From Thermoanaerobaculia bacterium (GTDB lineage: Bacteria > Acidobacteriota > Thermoanaerobaculia > Multivoradales > J023), in contig JAUIJL010000002.1 in assembly GCA_030431255.1 (NCBI GenBank), positions 248,001-312,000 of the forward strand: a stretch of DNA of 64,000 nt. Direction: 5' to 3'. The notes under the pieces were generated by a model. The model searched no databases, had not been told where the DNA came from, and saw only the letters and a list, made by a program, of their open reading frames with translations. Numbering within the stretch: position 1 is the first letter of the stretch; each line of letters starts with the position of its first letter. Positions 49,709 to 59,636 of the stretch are shown here, piece by piece. The translations under genes and the position numbers were made by a program.

Positions 49709-49870
49709 CCCATCTCCCAAAGGAAGAGCTCTCGCTCATCCACTATCGGCGGCGAGTCGCCGTCATCCCGGGACGAGCCGGCTTCAGACTTGGATCGACG
49801 GCGTGCTATATTTCGCCCGACACCCATCTTGAAGTTTGTTTCTGATCATTTCATCAGCTCTGGATCCACG

Positions 49871-52744
49871 ATGCTTCGAAAAGGGCCGAATTCTGCCCCC
49901 AAAACGGCTAACGGCCGAATAAATAGACATTTCATCTGCCGAACCGCGGGCCTGCCGGTGACCGAGCTGGACGGCCTTCGGGCGACCCGCGCAGTCGCTG
50001 CCTACGAGGACTGCGCTCGACGTCAAGAGCAGCTCGACCGGCTGTCGGCCGAGCTTTCAGATCAGCTCTTTGCGGCCGTCGATGGCGAGCAAGACCAAGA
50101 GCTCCGACGAGCTTTGCTCAACCTGAAGCGGGATGCCCACAACGACCGTCGCTTGCGCGCCAAGGATCTGACGACGGTGGACGGCCGGGTCGATCCGGAG
50201 GTGCTCGGCCGAATCCACCAGTATCGGGACGATTGGCTCGGGTTGCGCGACGCGCGTCAGGCGGCCCGGGACGTCTACGACCAAGAGCTCGTTCGCGCTC
50301 GGAAGCAATTCCAACAGGCGGTGGGACACGAAGACTTCGGCAAGGGTCTGCTGCTGTCGAGCCTGAGCCTGTCGGACAGCGTTCGACGTTACCAACGGGC
50401 GTCGCCGGAAAAGACCGGTGCGAAAGCGCGTCAAATCGAGCGTAGCTTGATGCGCTATTTCTCCCGCACGGTGATGAAAGCCACGCCTTTCAGCACCTTT
50501 TGCTCGCTGCTTTCGGGCCGTCTGGACCCTCTGGGTAAAACATCGCAGGACGCGGGTTTCGACCTCGATCCCGCCCAGAAAGCCGGCCACATCCGCCTCA
50601 ACAAAACCCTCTACGCCTTGATGTTGCCCTATCTTCTGGGCCGCCCCGGCATCCGAAGTCGGCTCGACGTGGAGCTCAATCCGACCCTCCAACCTGAAGG
50701 TGAAGGTCTGCTTTTTCTGGCCGCCCGTGGCCGGCAGGAGATCTTCCAGCGCATGGGTCCCAATCCCGTGGTGGAGCTGCTGCGGGAGCGTTTTCAAGAC
50801 CACAGCCGCCTACCTTGGCAAGATCTGGTGGACACCCTGTGCCGACACCCCGAGGTGGAGGCGAGCCCGGAGCAGGCCGCCGCCTACGTCGACAAGATGA
50901 TCGACATCGGCCTGCTGCGCTTTCGGGTCGGCATCCCCGAGCAAGAAGCCGATTGGGATCGCCCTTTGGCGGACCGGCTCTCCCCCATCGACGACGAGAT
51001 CGCCCGCAAGGTCGTGACGTTCCTCCGAGAGCTGCGACAGATCGCCGACACCTACTGCCGAGCCGACGCCGGAGCCCGACGGGCCCCTCTGACCCGAGCC
51101 AAATCCCTGGTCAAGGAGCTGTTTCAAGAGATCGCGCCGGCAAGGGCGGAGGTCAAAGCCCCGCCCTTCTACGAGGACGCCGGAGCCGCAGGAGACGAGC
51201 AAGGCCCTGCGCTGAGCTTGGATCTCGACGATCTCGAGCCCGCCCTGCTGGACTACGTGCGCTTGACCTCACGGCTGGCCTGGCCGAGGACCGAGCAGGC
51301 GAATATGCGTCATTTCTTCGACCGGTTTTACGGCCCGGAGCCGAGCTCTCTGCCGTTGTTGAAATTCTACGAGGACTACTATCGGGAGCACTTCAAGGAC
51401 CATCTTCGCCGTCAGCACGGTGGCCCTGGTAACCATCGGGTTCAAGATGAAGACGGCCCCGAGCAGGACGAGACGGGCACGGACCCCAAGGCCACAGACG
51501 ACAGCACCTACAGCGTCTTCAACCCCTTCGGCCTTCCATTCTTGGAAGATCTCGACCGAGGCCACAAGAAGATCACCCGCCGCATTCAAGCGCTGTGGGC
51601 GGCGAGCCCTGAAGCCGAGCAGATCGAGCTCAGCAAACGGGACCTCGAATCCGCGGTCGACCATGTGCCGCCCCTCCAAGCCGAGCCGTTCTCCGTCTCT
51701 TTGTTCACCCAATACTTGGCCGACTATCGGGCCGACGGCGCGCCAGCCTTGGTCGCCCGCAGCTACCTCACCGGATTCGGCAAATACTTCTCGCGCTTCC
51801 TGTACTTGCTGCCGGATGAGGTCCAAGAAGATCTCTACGCCGACAACCTCTCCATGACCGAAAAGGAGCTGGCGGAGATCTGCGGCGACGCCAACTTCAA
51901 CGCCAATCTCCACCCACCCCTGCTGCCCAAGGAGCTGAGCTATCCCACCGGTGAGGCCGGACGAGAAGAGCACCAAATCCTGAGCTCCGATGTGTGGGTC
52001 GAGCGCGATCCGGACAGCCCGTTTCGGCTGCGTTTGAAACGGAAGTCTTCCGGCAAAGCCGTGGTCCCCGTGGATCTGGGCTTTCTCAATCCGCGCATGC
52101 GGCCGCACCTTTTCCAGCTCTTGTCCCGCTTCACCCCGGCCCTCAGCTTCAACCTGCCGATCCCCGAAACCGCCACCGCCATGCGCGACCCCGAGCTCGG
52201 CGACCAGGTCCGATATCGCCCGCGGATCACCTACGAAGGCAAGCTGATCTTGGCACGGCGTCAATGGCAGCTGAGCGAAGCGCAATTTCCCGGGCTTCGC
52301 TCCCAGGAAAGCCCCGCCGACTATTTCTACCGAGTGCAGGCGTGGCGACGAAAGCTGGGGCTGCCCCAAGAGGTCTTCATGAGGATCGATGTCCGGCCCG
52401 CTCCGGCCGACGCCGAGCACAAGGTCGACGCCGAGCACAAGGTCGACGCCGAGCCCAAGGTCGACGCCGATTCCCCTGAGAAGAAGGCACAAGCCGGCTC
52501 GCCGATGCGCCAGCACCTCTACAAACCTCAATACATCGATTTCCACAATCCCTTGTTGGTGGATCTCTTCAGCCGCACCGGCGAGACCCTCGACTATTTC
52601 CAATGCACCTTCGAGGAGCGTCTGCCGGGGCACCGCCATTTGGTGTCCCACGGATCGGATCGATTCGCCACGGAAATGATCTTCCAAGTCGATTTTCCCC
52701 AAGGCACGGCGGCAGTCGAGCCTCGGGAGGCGTCCGATCCATGA
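49871..52744 (+). CDS. Lantibiotic dehydratase, N-terminal (glutamylation) part, LanB
   Basis: 957 residues from the ATG at 49871; the frame is open to a TTG at 49790, but the family's N-terminal motif (here FICRTAGLPVTELDGL) starts about 20 residues after the ATG. The chain follows the LanB N-terminal domain: SRTVMKATPFSTFCSLLSGR, GHIRLNKTLYALMLPYL, then TSRLAWPRTEQANMRHFFDR and FNPFGLPFLEDLDR, RSYLTGFGKYFSRFLYLLPD, HPPLLPKELSYPTGE. It should transfer glutamate from Glu-tRNA to Ser/Thr of the precursor. The elimination domain is absent and is encoded by the next gene, whose ATG overlaps this stop (ATGA). Three 18-base units (52409-52462) encode DAEHKV repeats. Confidence 0.88.
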   Translation: MLRKGPNSAPKTANGRINRHFICRTAGLPVTELDGLRATRAVAAYEDCARRQEQLDRLSAELSDQLFAAVDGEQDQELRRALLNLKRDAHNDRRLRAKDLTTVDGRVDPEVLGRIHQYRDDWLGLRDARQAARDVYDQELVRARKQFQQAVGHEDFGKGLLLSSLSLSDSVRRYQRASPEKTGAKARQIERSLMRYFSRTVMKATPFSTFCSLLSGRLDPLGKTSQDAGFDLDPAQKAGHIRLNKTLYALMLPYLLGRPGIRSRLDVELNPTLQPEGEGLLFLAARGRQEIFQRMGPNPVVELLRERFQDHSRLPWQDLVDTLCRHPEVEASPEQAAAYVDKMIDIGLLRFRVGIPEQEADWDRPLADRLSPIDDEIARKVVTFLRELRQIADTYCRADAGARRAPLTRAKSLVKELFQEIAPARAEVKAPPFYEDAGAAGDEQGPALSLDLDDLEPALLDYVRLTSRLAWPRTEQANMRHFFDRFYGPEPSSLPLLKFYEDYYREHFKDHLRRQHGGPGNHRVQDEDGPEQDETGTDPKATDDSTYSVFNPFGLPFLEDLDRGHKKITRRIQALWAASPEAEQIELSKRDLESAVDHVPPLQAEPFSVSLFTQYLADYRADGAPALVARSYLTGFGKYFSRFLYLLPDEVQEDLYADNLSMTEKELAEICGDANFNANLHPPLLPKELSYPTGEAGREEHQILSSDVWVERDPDSPFRLRLKRKSSGKAVVPVDLGFLNPRMRPHLFQLLSRFTPALSFNLPIPETATAMRDPELGDQVRYRPRITYEGKLILARRQWQLSEAQFPGLRSQESPADYFYRVQAWRRKLGLPQEVFMRIDVRPAPADAEHKVDAEHKVDAEPKVDADSPEKKAQAGSPMRQHLYKPQYIDFHNPLLVDLFSRTGETLDYFQCTFEERLPGHRHLVSHGSDRFATEMIFQVDFPQGTAAVEPREASDP

Positions 52745-53646
52745 GCCCCGACCGAAACCCGTGGCTCAGTGCTCACCTGCATTTCCGCGGACATTTGTTC
52801 GGGGTGGAAGCAGATCGCGTGTTGCTCGACGACGTGGCGCCCTGGCTCGACGCCTGGCGAGACGACGAGCTGTTCGAGAGGTTTTTCTTTATTCGCTACG
52901 AGCTCGGAGGACCCCACATCCGGCTGCGCCTCCTGCCTCGAGATGCGTCCTGCCGTCAGGAGCTGGAACGACGCATCGACGAGCAAGCCGCGGCTTCTCC
53001 GAGCATCGAGGCCGTCCGCCGGCAGCCCTACGAGCCGGAGTCGGCTCGTTACGGCGGACCCGCCGGCTTGGGACCGTCCGAAGACCACTTTCAAGCCTCC
53101 AGCATCGCCGCCCTAGGCCTGCTGAGCAAGATCCAACCCGACGACCGACCGGCGCGTCTGGGAAAAGCCATGCTCGCCCAGCTGGTGGTGCTGCACGGGC
53201 TGCTGCCCGATCGCGAGCCCGCGGCGGAGCTCATCCACGCTTTTGGTAGCTCCTATTTGCGCCACCGGGCCGGTGACCCTCACCGTCAACAACAATGGCT
53301 CGATGAATTCCAACGGGGATTCGATCGCCAATCCGACCGGCTCGCCGCTTATGTGGAGGCGGCCTGGAGCGCCCTTGAGGACGGTGATGAGCTAACCCCC
53401 GAGCTCGACACCCTGCGTGCGGAGCTCGCCATCACCCGCTCACAGCTCCGAGCGGCCGCCGACCGGGGCGAGCTGCTCGCCGCGGGGCAACCCGCCGATT
53501 GGCAGAGCTGCGTCCGCTGGCTGCTCCCGAGCTACCTGCACATGACCCACAACCGAATCGGGGCCGACCTGCGGGAAGAGTGTTATCTCTCGGTGCTGAT
53601 CGAAAAAACCCTGGTCGAGAAATCAGAGACAACCGAAGGCCTTTGA
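52741..53646 (+). CDS. Lantibiotic dehydratase C-terminal (elimination) part / thiopeptide-type protein
   Basis: 301 residues from the ATG overlapping the LanB stop. The opening WLSAHLHFRGHLFGVEADRV followed by FFFIRYELGGPHIRLRLL is the SpaB_C / thiopeptide-type domain signature, and the closing LLPSYLHMTHNRIGADLREE is its usual end (H-x-N-R). This domain removes glutamate to leave dehydroalanine/dehydrobutyrine. A full-length LanB is about 1000 residues with both parts in one chain; here they are separate and translationally coupled, as in thiopeptide systems and, to my memory, pinensin-type clusters. Confidence 0.87.
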   Translation: MSPDRNPWLSAHLHFRGHLFGVEADRVLLDDVAPWLDAWRDDELFERFFFIRYELGGPHIRLRLLPRDASCRQELERRIDEQAAASPSIEAVRRQPYEPESARYGGPAGLGPSEDHFQASSIAALGLLSKIQPDDRPARLGKAMLAQLVVLHGLLPDREPAAELIHAFGSSYLRHRAGDPHRQQQWLDEFQRGFDRQSDRLAAYVEAAWSALEDGDELTPELDTLRAELAITRSQLRAAADRGELLAAGQPADWQSCVRWLLPSYLHMTHNRIGADLREECYLSVLIEKTLVEKSETTEGL

Positions 53647-53702: not shown

Positions 53703-54041
53703 ATGAAAAAGCTGAAGTTGGATCTCGATGACCTGAAAGTTGAGTCGTTCGAAACCACCCCGGAAAGCCGGGACGACCAAGGCACGGTCTACGGGTACAT
53801 CACCCAAGACCTGACCCTCTGCGACGTCTGCACCGACTCCACCTGTGGAAGCACCTGTGACAGCACGTGCGGAAGCACCTGTGGCAGCACGTGCGGAAGC
53901 ACCTGTGGCAGCACGTGTGGAAGCACCTGCGGCAGCACTTGCGCGAGCACCTGCGGCAGTGGATGCGGCGGCGGTGGCACCACCTGCTTCGAGATGTGCG
54001 CCACGGAATTCGCCTGCTTCTATTGCACCCGCGATTGCTGA
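53703..54041 (+). CDS. Lanthipeptide precursor with (Ser-Thr-Cys-Gly)n core
   Basis: 112 residues with AAAGGAAA before the ATG. The leader MKKLKLDLDDLKVESFETTP with a following GTVYGYI is the pinensin-type leader (conserved L-x-L-D-D-L-x-V-E-S-F). The core starts near residue 40: LCDVCTD, then ten consecutive S-T-C units separated by Gly, Asp or Ala (residues 46-84), SGC at 86-88, a Gly-rich bend and a Cys-rich tail (TTCFEMCATEFACFYCTRDC). There are 18 cysteines in all. Substrate of the LanB pair and LanC encoded around it. Ser and Thr directly before each Cys would allow many small lanthionine rings in a row. Product and activity unknown. Confidence 0.9.
   Translation: MKKLKLDLDDLKVESFETTPESRDDQGTVYGYITQDLTLCDVCTDSTCGSTCDSTCGSTCGSTCGSTCGSTCGSTCGSTCASTCGSGCGGGGTTCFEMCATEFACFYCTRDC
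53838..53966 (+). repeat. 12/24-bp in-frame tandem repeat encoding the STC ladder
   Basis: Ten units of 12 bases plus a final variant. Gly codons alternate GGA/GGC and Thr codons ACC/ACG so that pairs of units form a 24-base higher period in the middle of the array, which indicates growth by duplication of two-unit blocks. Confidence 0.92.
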
Positions 54042-54136
54042 TCGAGCCCTTTTGAGCTAGCTAAGCCTTGACGACGGTCGATGCTCGACCGTATCGCTCC
54101 GTGCTCCCTTTCGGATCGATTTCAAACCTTGCTCGA

Positions 54137-56293
54137 ATGGATTTCACCTTGCCCCGCCACAAGCCGTCTTCACCTCTGATTCCCGCCCTGCCGCTCCCCG
54201 ACCGGCCTGCGATTTCCGAGCAGGACCTTCGGGATACGGTCGTCCGCATCGCCGGGAGGATCCGCGATCAAGCGATTCCGCTCGACACCCCGGAAGGGCA
54301 TGACGGTGATCGCTGCACCTGGCAGATTCGCTCGCCGGACCCGCAGGCCGAAGGTCGACGATCCCGTCCGGAGCTCGCCTCAGGCCTGGTCTATCAGGGC
54401 AGCGCCGGCATCGCCTATTTCCTCGCCCAAGGCGGTCGTGCCCTCGACGACAGCTCTTTGCGAGAAGTCGCCCGAGCGGGATTCCGTCATGCCCTGGACT
54501 TCGGGGCTACCCTGCCGGAAAACGCCTGGGGCCTGCACAGCGGTCGGGTCGGCATCGCATGGTCGGTGCTCACCTCGGAGCCGGCCGGCACCGCGTCAAC
54601 CCACAAGCAACCGCCCGATAGCGAGCTGGAGGACCGGGCGTGGGCCCTGCTCGAGCCCATGTCGCCGCAAGATCATCCGGACCAAGGGCTCGACATCATC
54701 GCCGGTGCCGCCGGGGCCGTTCCCGCGTTGCTCGATCTGCGATCCCGCGCAGACTCCGAGCAGCGTCGGGCCTGGTTGCTGCGCACCGCCGAAGCTTTGG
54801 GCGAGCATTTGCTGGCCACGGCTCACCAAGAGCCCATGGGTTGGTCGTGGCCGACCTTGCCGCGATCGTCGGTACGGCATTTGGTCGGTTTTGCCCACGG
54901 CACCGCCGGCATTGCCGTGGCCCTCTACGAGCTGGCATTGGCCACCGAACGGGGCGACTTCCGCTTTGCCGCCGACATGGCCCTGGTCTACGAGTCGCAG
55001 CATTTCCAACCCGAGCGGAACAACTGGCCGGACCTTCGCAACGTGCCCCTCGGCGAGCTGATGCGGGGCGTCCCGCGGCCTCGGCTCCAAGCCATGGCGC
55101 GCGCCGGCGCCCTGCCCGCCTACACACCCACGCCCATGGCGGCCTGGTGCCACGGCTGCCCAGGAGTCGCCCTCTCCCGCCTCCGCCTCTGGCAGCTGAC
55201 CGGCGTGCACGAATTCCTCGACACCGCCCGTCGCGCCCTGCGCTCGACCCTGCGCTCCCTCAGTCCCGAAGCCCTGGCCGTGGCCAACTACAGCTTGTGC
55301 CACGGAGCCTGCGGCAACGCCGAGCCCCTCTGGATGGCGGCCGAGCTGCTGCAAGATGAGGACGAGCGGGAGGCCCTGAGACAAACTTGCAAGCAAGTCG
55401 CGGTCGAGGGTCGGCGCCGGCACGAGCTGGCGAACGACCGCTGGCCCTGCGGCACCTTCGACGGCGCTTCCGACCCCAGCCTGATGATGGGCGAAGCGGG
55501 CATTGGCCTCTTCTTCTTGCGTCTGCTCGATCCCGAGGTGCCGAGCCCGCTGCTGATTCGACCGGCCCAAACCAACGACCAGCCGCCAGAATCCGGCTAT
55601 CGCGAGTCGGCGGAGCGCAGCATCAATACCTTCTTCGCCGGCACGCTGCACCTGTGGCAAGAGCTCGGTACCCCGAAACAGGAGCTGCTCGGCGAGCTCG
55701 ATCTCGATCCCGGCACCGGGCCACCGTCGAAGGCCCCCGCGGCCCGGGCCTTCGAGCGACTTCAACAACGTGCCGACGAGCTGCCTCCGGTCTACGCCGA
55801 CGCCTTCAGCGTGGAACGGGAGATCTACCGACGCACCGCCGCCCTCGACGACTTCACGGCCGAAACCGTGCGCTCCTTGGCGCGCTGGGCCCCGGCGGAT
55901 CTGGAGGCGGCCTTGGATCAAGACCCGAGCTCCGTGGTGTTCCACCTGGCTCCCGACGACGCGCTGGTGATCACTGACTATGATTGGCAAGCGTGGGCCG
56001 CCCGACCTGAAGACGAGCGCCCAGCGCCGGAGCCGAGCTCCACCGCCACCCTGCTGACCCGACGCAACCACCGCTTGGTGCCCAGGCGTCTGGAAGCGCT
56101 GCCGGCGGTGATCCTGCAGGCCTGCCAGGAACCCGCGACCCTCGAGCAGATCCTCGAACAAGTGACCGAAGCCCTGGCCGGCGCCGCGGAGCCGAGCGTG
56201 CTGCGGACGCTGGTCCGTCGGCAGGTCTTCCAGCTCTACAGCGGCGCCCTGCTCGACGCCCACATCACCGAGCCGGCATCATCCAACCCATGA
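54137..56293 (+). CDS. LanC-like lanthionine cyclase with C-terminal extension
   Basis: 718 residues from the ATG at 54137 (a TTG at 54068 is the alternative). Residues about 90-500 form the LanC toroid (GLVYQGSAGIAYFLAQ, RHLVGFAHGTAGIAVALYEL). The zinc ligands are Cys338 (AWCHGCPGVAL) and Cys388-His389 (SLCHGACGNAE); LMMGEAGIGLFFLRLL closes the fold. It joins precursor cysteines to dehydrated residues. The last 200 residues are extra: a helical part, then LVPRRLEALPAVILQACQEP, TLEQILEQV and LRTLVRRQVFQLYSGALLD, which looks like a PqqD-type winged helix (a possible leader-binding RRE). The stop overlaps the protease start (ATGA). Confidence 0.87.
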   Translation: MDFTLPRHKPSSPLIPALPLPDRPAISEQDLRDTVVRIAGRIRDQAIPLDTPEGHDGDRCTWQIRSPDPQAEGRRSRPELASGLVYQGSAGIAYFLAQGGRALDDSSLREVARAGFRHALDFGATLPENAWGLHSGRVGIAWSVLTSEPAGTASTHKQPPDSELEDRAWALLEPMSPQDHPDQGLDIIAGAAGAVPALLDLRSRADSEQRRAWLLRTAEALGEHLLATAHQEPMGWSWPTLPRSSVRHLVGFAHGTAGIAVALYELALATERGDFRFAADMALVYESQHFQPERNNWPDLRNVPLGELMRGVPRPRLQAMARAGALPAYTPTPMAAWCHGCPGVALSRLRLWQLTGVHEFLDTARRALRSTLRSLSPEALAVANYSLCHGACGNAEPLWMAAELLQDEDEREALRQTCKQVAVEGRRRHELANDRWPCGTFDGASDPSLMMGEAGIGLFFLRLLDPEVPSPLLIRPAQTNDQPPESGYRESAERSINTFFAGTLHLWQELGTPKQELLGELDLDPGTGPPSKAPAARAFERLQQRADELPPVYADAFSVEREIYRRTAALDDFTAETVRSLARWAPADLEAALDQDPSSVVFHLAPDDALVITDYDWQAWAARPEDERPAPEPSSTATLLTRRNHRLVPRRLEALPAVILQACQEPATLEQILEQVTEALAGAAEPSVLRTLVRRQVFQLYSGALLDAHITEPASSNP

Positions 56294-57108
56294 CCGACAC
56301 CGTCACCGATCACGAGCACCCCCATTGGCTCAACCAGCGTTTGGCCGGAGCCGACGGCAGCGGCGTGCGGGTGGCGGTGATCGACAGCGGGTTCCGAGAA
56401 GGCTCGAGCTTTCCCGGCTGGATCCAACCCGGGCGCTCCTGGGTCGATCCCAAAGACCCCTTCTCCACCCTTGAAAATGATGACCTCGCCGACCGCATCG
56501 GTCACGGCACTGCCGCGAGCGATATCGTGCATCGACTTGCCTCCCGAGCCACCGTTGTCGTGCATCGGGTTTTCGGCGACCGCCTCGAAACCTCCCCCGG
56601 CACGATCGTCGCGGCCATCGATCGAGCGGCGGAGCATCGCGTCGAGGTCATCAACCTCAGCCTCGGCAGCCCCGCAGAAACCGCCAAGGCCCCTTTCTAC
56701 GCCGCCTGCGAGCGGGCACGGCAAGCCGGATGTTTCGTGATCTCGGCCCAGCCCATCGGCGCGGGAGTCGTCTACCCCGCATGCTTCGACCACGTCATCA
56801 GCGTCACCGCAAGCCGCTTCGGCAACGCCTACGACCTCGACCATCATCCCGACGACGCCGCGGATTACATCGCCCACGGAGAAAGCCGTACCGACTGGCA
56901 AGGTAAACCCCAAGAGCTCTACGGCTCCAGCTTCGCTGCCCCCCACCTCAGCGGCATCGTCGCGCTCTTGTGTCAAAGGTTCCCCAAAGCCGACCTCAAC
57001 GGAATCCGCAGCTTGCTCGACGAGCTGGCAAAGGCGTCTAGGGAGGCGAGGCGGGTGAAAGTCGACCGCGGTCAGCAAGTCCAAGAGGGAGATCACTCCA
57101 CGAAGTAG
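56290..57108 (+). CDS. Cytoplasmic subtilisin-like (S8) protease, probable LanP
   Basis: 272 residues without signal peptide or pro-region. Catalytic triad Asp32 (VAVIDSG), His72 (IGHGTA) and Ser214 (YGSSFAAPHLSG). The oxyanion Asn normally in an A-x-G-N stretch is not seen: the segment reads FVISAQPIGAGVVYPACF. Overlap with the lanC-like gene and the lack of export point to cytoplasmic removal of the precursor leader. It may be an unusual or weak protease if the Asn is truly missing. Confidence 0.85.
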   Translation: MTDTVTDHEHPHWLNQRLAGADGSGVRVAVIDSGFREGSSFPGWIQPGRSWVDPKDPFSTLENDDLADRIGHGTAASDIVHRLASRATVVVHRVFGDRLETSPGTIVAAIDRAAEHRVEVINLSLGSPAETAKAPFYAACERARQAGCFVISAQPIGAGVVYPACFDHVISVTASRFGNAYDLDHHPDDAADYIAHGESRTDWQGKPQELYGSSFAAPHLSGIVALLCQRFPKADLNGIRSLLDELAKASREARRVKVDRGQQVQEGDHSTK

Positions 57109-59199: not shown

Positions 59200-59636
59200 G
59201 CACCACTCGAAATGCCAGGCACCAAGTGCCCGGAGCAGGTGCCACGTTGATGTTCAGGCAGGTGCCACGTTGATGTTCAAAGCGCCCGAGGCAGGTGCCA
59301 CGTTGATGTTCAGGCAGGTGCCACGTTGATGTTCAAGGGCCTCCGAGATCGGTGCCACGTTGATGTTCAGGCAGGTGCCACGTTGATGTTCAAGGGCCTC
59401 CGAGATCGGTGCCACGTTGATGTTCAATGCGCCACGTTGATGTTCAAGGGCATCTGTTCAGGCAGGTGCCACGTTGATGTTCAAGGGCATCCGAAATCGG
59501 TGCCACGTTGATGTTCAAGGGCCTCAGGTGGCCCATGTTTACCGGCCACCCTAAAACACCTCCCCAAGAACATTCCCAGCAGATCTGATAGAACTGTGCC
59601 CTGCCAAACCAACGTTTCCAGCCGAAAGGACCTGTC
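59200..59636. repeat. Gene-free region with tenfold GCCACGTTGATGTTCA repeat array
   Basis: The exact 16-mer GCCACGTTGATGTTCA occurs ten times between 59241 and 59517, all on the same strand. Most copies are preceded by GGT. Linkers alternate between a short one (GGCAGGT) and a longer one (AAGGGCCTCCGAGATCGGT), so the array is built of two-copy blocks. A GGCACC-containing sequence like that at 38795 precedes it (59210-59223). No gene is seen; the downstream gene at 59637 has its own ribosome binding site. Confidence 0.92.

Follow-up and report, generated by a model that had tools for sequence, protein, structure and literature searches.

If a peptide core consists largely of Ser-Thr-Cys units repeated as a ladder, which hydroxylated residue would each cysteine capture, and what form would the product take? 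The question is raised by a gene in a 64-kb stretch of Thermoanaerobaculia DNA (hereafter, the window) whose open reading frame runs from ATG to TGA and encodes a precursor (LanA) of 112 amino acids with 18 cysteines (Table 1). Translation bears out what an earlier note had read from this DNA: ten S-T-C units (starting at residues 46, 50 and so on to 82) are spaced by a single residue, which is Gly save for one Asp and one Ala, and are followed by an SGC variant and a Cys-rich tail with cysteines at positions 95, 99, 105, 108 and 112.

Table 1. Coordinates of the precursor gene, its parts and the neighboring operon genes within the window
Feature	Position	Strand	Basis or remark
LanB glutamylation half	49790..52744	+	PF04738, TbtB-like
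LanB elimination half	52741..53646	+	PF14028/TIGR03891
LanA precursor peptide	53703..54041	+	Open reading frame, leader profile match, orthologues
Pinensin-type leader (residues 4-28; LxLDxLxVESF ...)	53712..53786	+	NF038180
GTVYG motif (residues 27-31)	53781..53795	+	Conserved motif across precursors
Ten S-T-C units (residues 46-84)	53838..53954	+	Tandem repeat, translation, shuffles
SGC variant rung (residues 86-88)	53958..53966	+	Sequence; follows the S-T-C array
Cys-rich tail (residues 89-112)	53967..54038	+	End (FxCxxCTxxC-like) conserved in two orthologues
Inverted repeat between LanA and LanC	54074..54092	+	z -2.3, weak
LanC cyclase fused to C-terminal domain	about 54137..56293	+	PF05147, LanM-like
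LanC C-terminal domain, TglI/NGO1945-like with PqqD/RRE-like fold	55541..56290	+	Predicted model, Foldseek, VIA, PF22106
Subtilisin-like S8 protease	56290..57108	+	QhpE/mycosin-like; relatives in same operon elsewhere

The array lies beyond chance expectation, since none of 2000 shuffled cores reached ten consecutive [ST]C pairs at a spacing of 4, and since Tandem Repeats Finder recovers it both as five copies of 24 nt and as ten copies of 12 nt (scores 177 and 128). Because it is short (120 bp), is built of non-identical units and sits on a 763-kb contig, it is unlikely to be an assembly artefact. If the ladder were instead a minisatellite drifting neutrally within a lanthipeptide gene, its number of rungs would carry no meaning, and both the 24-nt tandem period and the differences among orthologues in copy number and homogeneity are of the kind that such expansion would leave behind. 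However, almost all DNA differences between the units are silent (pS 0.65, pN 0.09), and within the codons for S, T and C pN drops to 0.055, entirely due to one TCC serine, so that the protein pattern looks to be held by selection and to be more than a recent DNA duplication. Given also that the Cys ladder is kept in divergent relatives and that the enzymes are intact, we consider neutral expansion very improbable. The codons alternate between neighboring units, producing the 24-nt period, and part of the array therefore probably grew by two rungs per step.

The class of the precursor can be read from its leader, which scores 26.5 bits against the pinensin leader family (NF038180; cut-off 24), in line with the earlier note, and is the only match to that family in the window genome; the leaders of orthologues score between 16 and 24 bits, with one just above the cut-off and the rest below. 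The LxLD of the leader would fit the class in which FxLD/LxLD serves for leader recognition (PMC12710340), and further traits of pinensin systems, a split LanB and a LanM-like LanC, occur at this locus. On these features of sequence and gene content, the open reading frame very probably encodes a pinensin-type class I lanthipeptide precursor; the alternative assignment to the heterocycloanthracin/sonorensin family (TIGR03601) reached just 11.2 bits against a cut-off of 35. The core itself is not of the pinensin kind, with 18 cysteines here versus the two rings reported for pinensins (PMC13060382), and the product cannot resemble those two-ring peptides, such that pinensin-type refers to leader and enzymes only. 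The GTVYG motif, whose counterpart G[TS][VI]x[GA] is kept in 31 of 33 precursors, may mark the leader-core junction or a protease site. Other ladder-like frames were rejected as precursors: second STC-like matches in the window genome (L002) are other repeats that lack a leader, and those at L008-L010 and L012 (G007, G008, G061 and G036) are low-complexity frames, likewise leaderless.

The precursor gene belongs to a compact operon in which the LanB glutamylation half, the LanB elimination half, LanA, LanC and an S8 protease follow one another, all on the + strand and overlapping or almost touching. The glutamylation half matches PF04738 (E 1.5e-40), its best solved relative being TbtB, and its true start is probably downstream of the TTG at 49790. 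The elimination half matches PF14028 (E 7.8e-38), opens with an ATG (52741) that overlaps the preceding stop as ATGA, and carries HxRxR, PExxRYGG and HMxxNR motifs that are present in all five aligned relatives as well. In LanC, aligned to LicM2, LANCL1 and relatives, the zinc and catalytic motifs (AHG, WCHG, CHG) are intact, with C-C-H as the zinc ligands. We propose the S8 protease as the putative leader peptidase, and the weak inverted repeat between LanA and LanC might possibly act as an mRNA stabilizer or attenuator. Promoter-like (49783) and terminator-like (57278) sites frame the operon, but sites of these types are no commoner here than in shuffled sequences. Its neighbors (genes for an amidohydrolase, a PQQ/ankyrin protein, a DA1-like protein and HpaB) look unrelated, and none of them was found at the related loci compared. 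No ABC transporter gene lies within the 64-kb window, and an exporter orthologue is encoded on another contig of the same genome (L053; G000:C17:103114-104889), with 65% identity to the operon-borne exporter of locus L015 (next best 32%); its surroundings contain no further lanthipeptide genes. PADLOC reported a generic subtilase and nothing else. Two further repeats occur in the window: an 18-nt unit in 3.5 copies within LanB_N (52408-52470, DAEHKV repeats), probably a linker expansion, and an array near the start of the HpaB-like gene (59235-59525) with periods of 57, 34 and 91 nt and the core GGTGCCACGTTGATGTTCA.

Searches of the window's order and of a genome collection recovered syntenic copies of the operon in relatives. 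Orthologous operons occur in the Acidobacteriota MAG OFTM328 (L015/L023), with a shorter STCG array, in the Thermoanaerobaculia MAG G036 (L016/L022), where the core is an SCNGTC version, in OFTM223 (L017) and at a second OFTM328 locus (L018). The window genome falls in the same taxonomic order as G036, and hence within Acidobacteriota. More distant operons are found in Melioribacter, Ignavibacteriales and Melioribacteraceae MAGs (L024, L026, L034) and in a Gemmatimonadetes MAG (L088). At L015 and L016, an ABC exporter sits between LanC and the S8 protease, and the catalytic motifs of the operon enzymes are retained in relatives. Some paralogous precursors lie away from enzyme genes, yet in genomes that encode those enzymes; among orthologues, none was found to lack a LanB or LanC neighbor, such a lack being what the earlier note had named as speaking against modification. 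Its claim that the enzymes are encoded alongside and that the peptide is very likely modified thus gains support from the leader, the intact enzyme motifs, the protease and the conservation of the operon across several phyla.

Related precursors occur in other arrangements as well. The Gemmatimonadetes MAG RYN_364 (G448) encodes at least 34 distinct precursors that share one leader (VESFxT...RGTVxG) and have highly variable Cys-containing cores; they are scattered over many contigs (L031, L035 and part of L057-L121), with LanB_N at a single locus and the enzymes at L088. By its gene content, this is a one-enzyme-many-substrates set-up like that of the prochlorosins, but of class I. The Acidobacteria MAG PL23a_bin.88 (G234; L036-L044, L089) has eight precursors on separate contigs and one LanB_N/ABC contig, and one of its precursors (L039) also bears a GNTCGGTCGHSCGGTC ladder. 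A divergent paralogous cluster (L020, G005:C30) has CCG in place of CHG in its LanC, which is without the C-terminal domain described below, and its precursor core is very unlike the others.

To identify which residues of the ladder are conserved, we pooled 33 leader-related precursors with 24 added from the Gemmatimonadetes MAG (57 precursors with 493 cysteines). Ser or Thr directly precedes 57% of the cysteines, against a shuffled mean of 22% and maximum of 27%, but occupies positions -2 and -3 in just 16% and 14% of cases, both under the 21% expected, and 33% of Cys-Cys spacings equal 4 (10% when shuffled). In the set of 33 precursors, the commonest separation between a -1 Ser/Thr and the Cys after its own is i+5 (100 of 209). 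A Ser/Thr of its own precedes the last Cys in 12 of 57 precursors (21%), compared with 244 of 379 interior cysteines (64%; p=7e-10), and the deficit recurs when the 24 Gemmatimonadetes additions are taken on their own (p=0.0025); the first Cys, at 46%, departs less from the interior. These shuffle and Fisher controls ignore relatedness among the precursors, and a less redundant set yields the same values. Runs of at least three rungs are present in only 15 of the 33 precursors, Ser plus Thr equal or outnumber Cys in all 33 of these cores, and the array ends in SGC in the window and in TC-SGC at L005. Because Ser/Thr is conserved at -1 and falls below expectation at -2, the family rule is [ST]-C-x-x-[ST]-C, and the extra Ser of S-T-C is a local elaboration; repeated S-T-C is limited to the window and one orthologue, and we rejected Ser at -2 as a conserved element.

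This rule bears directly on ring topology. The usual partner of Cys in LanC reactions is a dehydro residue N-terminal to it, as also in pinensins (PMC13060382). We propose that the split LanB pair would glutamylate and eliminate the Thr residues of the array (and probably the Ser residues too), that LanC, steered by its own leader-binding C-terminal domain, would join each Cys to a preceding dehydro residue, that the S8 protease would strip the leader, and that the ABC exporter encoded elsewhere in the genome would export the product. Rings would run from Thr(n) to Cys(n+1), i.e., from i to i+5 (T47-C52 through T83-C88), and consecutive rings would overlap, linking about ten of them into an interlocked chain, with Cys88 of the SGC unit as a terminal acceptor that has no Thr of its own. 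If Thr pairs with the next Cys in this manner, a Thr-less Cys is to be expected at the end of a run, as Cys88 is, although the last-Cys signal could instead reflect merely a different C-terminal tail. We give about even chances to such an array of interlocked i+5 rings, which would be a serial version of the nisin D/E motif. In the window, the extra -2 Ser also allows rings of i+2 or i+6, or a mixture of patterns.

The earlier note had supposed that each Cys might take the Ser or Thr adjacent to it, which would produce a rod of very small fused or consecutive rings; taken as Thr-Cys at i+1 or Ser-x-Cys at i+2, this would give tiny separate rings. That S and T directly precede every array Cys agrees with this supposition, and a vicinal lanthionine does exist in mersacidin (Cys1-Thr2, in the reversed direction; PMC9486960). 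However, the mersacidin enzyme MrsM proved unable to form a forward vicinal Thr-Cys ring (PMC9486960); the depletion of Ser/Thr at -2 in relatives indicates that i+2 pairing is not the chemistry of the family; and small rings do not predict a last Cys lacking Ser/Thr. Geometry provides a separate line of evidence: in a coarse periodic-backbone model (ideal bond geometry, side chains represented to CB and S only, no solvent, clash limits of our choosing), i+1 and i+2 ladders failed to close with trans amides and closed with cis amides only, whereas reversed i+3, i+5 and i+6 ladders closed with all-trans amides, those three not being rankable among themselves. Because of the conservation at -1, the array-end pattern and this simple geometry, overlapping medium-sized rings that pair with the next Cys are favored over the very small ones, which we regard as quite unlikely.

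Pairing in the reverse direction, from Cys(n) to the dehydrated Thr(n+1) at i+3, would place non-overlapping four-residue rings in a row. Such rings are geometrically easy in the coarse model, and Ser/Thr is enriched at +3 of Cys. This direction is nevertheless unusual: the ProcM clade, which cyclizes both ways, has C-C-C zinc ligands (PMC13060382), whereas the window LanC is of the C-C-H type. In addition, reverse pairing leaves unexplained why the deficit of Ser/Thr is strong at the last Cys and mild at the first, and we consider it unlikely.

The i+5 proposal assigns a role to the C-terminal domain of LanC (residues 492-741 of its frame), which is conserved in four Acidobacteriota relatives and is detectable by BLAST in the more distant operons (L024, L026, L034 and L088), but was not detected by BLAST in a Dyadobacter LanC encoded beside a related leader (L032) or in the LanC of L020. 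The domain model (pLDDT 81) matches TglI (VIA Z 11.8) and NGO1945 (Z 10.7), with the next match at 7.3, and in Foldseek/VIA comparisons the C-terminal half of the model also gives matches to PqqD, TbiB1 and NisB; PF22106 is matched by five of five members at E 1e-4 or weaker, the window member falling below the cut-off. TglI and NGO1945 are partners of MNIO enzymes, and NGO1945 combines DUF2063 with an RRE-type domain (PMC12452194). There is no MNIO gene in the operon and no PF05114 in G005, G036 or G446; the window genome has two PF05114 copies, both unlinked to the operon. Because G005, G036 and G446 carry the operon but no MNIO gene, an MNIO partnership is disfavored and the domain probably serves LanC itself, its simplest role being that of a putative leader binder. 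In the open literature (most subscription papers were outside our scope), we found no report of a LanC-RRE fusion or of a Thr-Cys ladder.

The same resemblance bears on the alternative, put by the earlier note as mostly free cysteines that bind metal, in which few rings form and most cysteines remain as metal-binding thiols or disulfides, as in a metallothionein or a bufferin. The Cys content is very high, and the products of MNIO enzymes include copper-binding bufferins (PMC12452194), so this alternative retains some footing. However, operons in genomes without any MNIO gene argue against it, and it makes the conserved -1 Ser/Thr needless and leaves unexplained why Ser plus Thr never fall short of Cys; we judge it improbable.

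What is new here would be a ladder with an unusually long polycyclic topology within a known kind of product, the pinensin-type class I lanthipeptides. The complete picture, i.e., a rod in which at least ten i+5 (methyl)lanthionine rings interlock in series, produced by LanB and a LanC cyclase with its own leader-binding domain, and with a ring number that evolves simply through tandem duplication of 12 or 24 bp, we advance tentatively, at somewhat less than even chances. If it is true, repeat copy number sets ring number, making this a genetically programmable interlocked chain, longer than the ring chain of any lanthipeptide that we found in the open literature. The system would allow one to study, on a clean substrate, the processing of long repetitive cores by LanB and LanC. 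It also defines a sub-family, occurring in at least three phyla, that at present would be filed simply as 'pinensin family', with neither the ladder rule nor the LanC fusion noted.

Among characterized lanthipeptides, the closest precedent for the proposed linkage is nisin, in which adjacent Thr-Cys residues belong to two interlocked rings (D and E), each with its dehydro residue N-terminal to the Cys. Nisin has one such overlap, between i+3 rings, whereas about ten in series, of i+5 type, are proposed here. The known maximum is seven bridges and five overlaps (PMC11251773), and the number of overlaps that we propose exceeds the documented cases. Myxococin, with five overlapping bridges, is strongly overlapped like our proposal, and geobacillin I has seven bridges and three overlaps, but both have fewer bridges than proposed here, and no periodic array is mentioned for either (PMC11251773). 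Pinensins A and B, class I products of Chitinophaga, share the leader family and the combination of split LanB with LanM-like LanC (PMC7268733), but have two methyllanthionine rings (PMC13060382) where the window core has a periodic array. The 'tha' cluster of Thermoanaerobaculia (PMC13083261), a class II system with a GMC oxidoreductase, is a different system. TglI, NGO1945 and HvfC, partners of MNIO enzymes, have a fold that the LanC domain model resembles, including its PqqD-like part, whereas in the window the domain is fused to LanC in an operon without an MNIO enzyme. Finally, the prochlorosins, in which one enzyme serves many substrates, are paralleled by the single enzyme locus and dispersed same-leader precursors of G448, but they belong to class II, whereas the G448 system is class I, with split LanB and with LanC of C-C-H zinc ligands.
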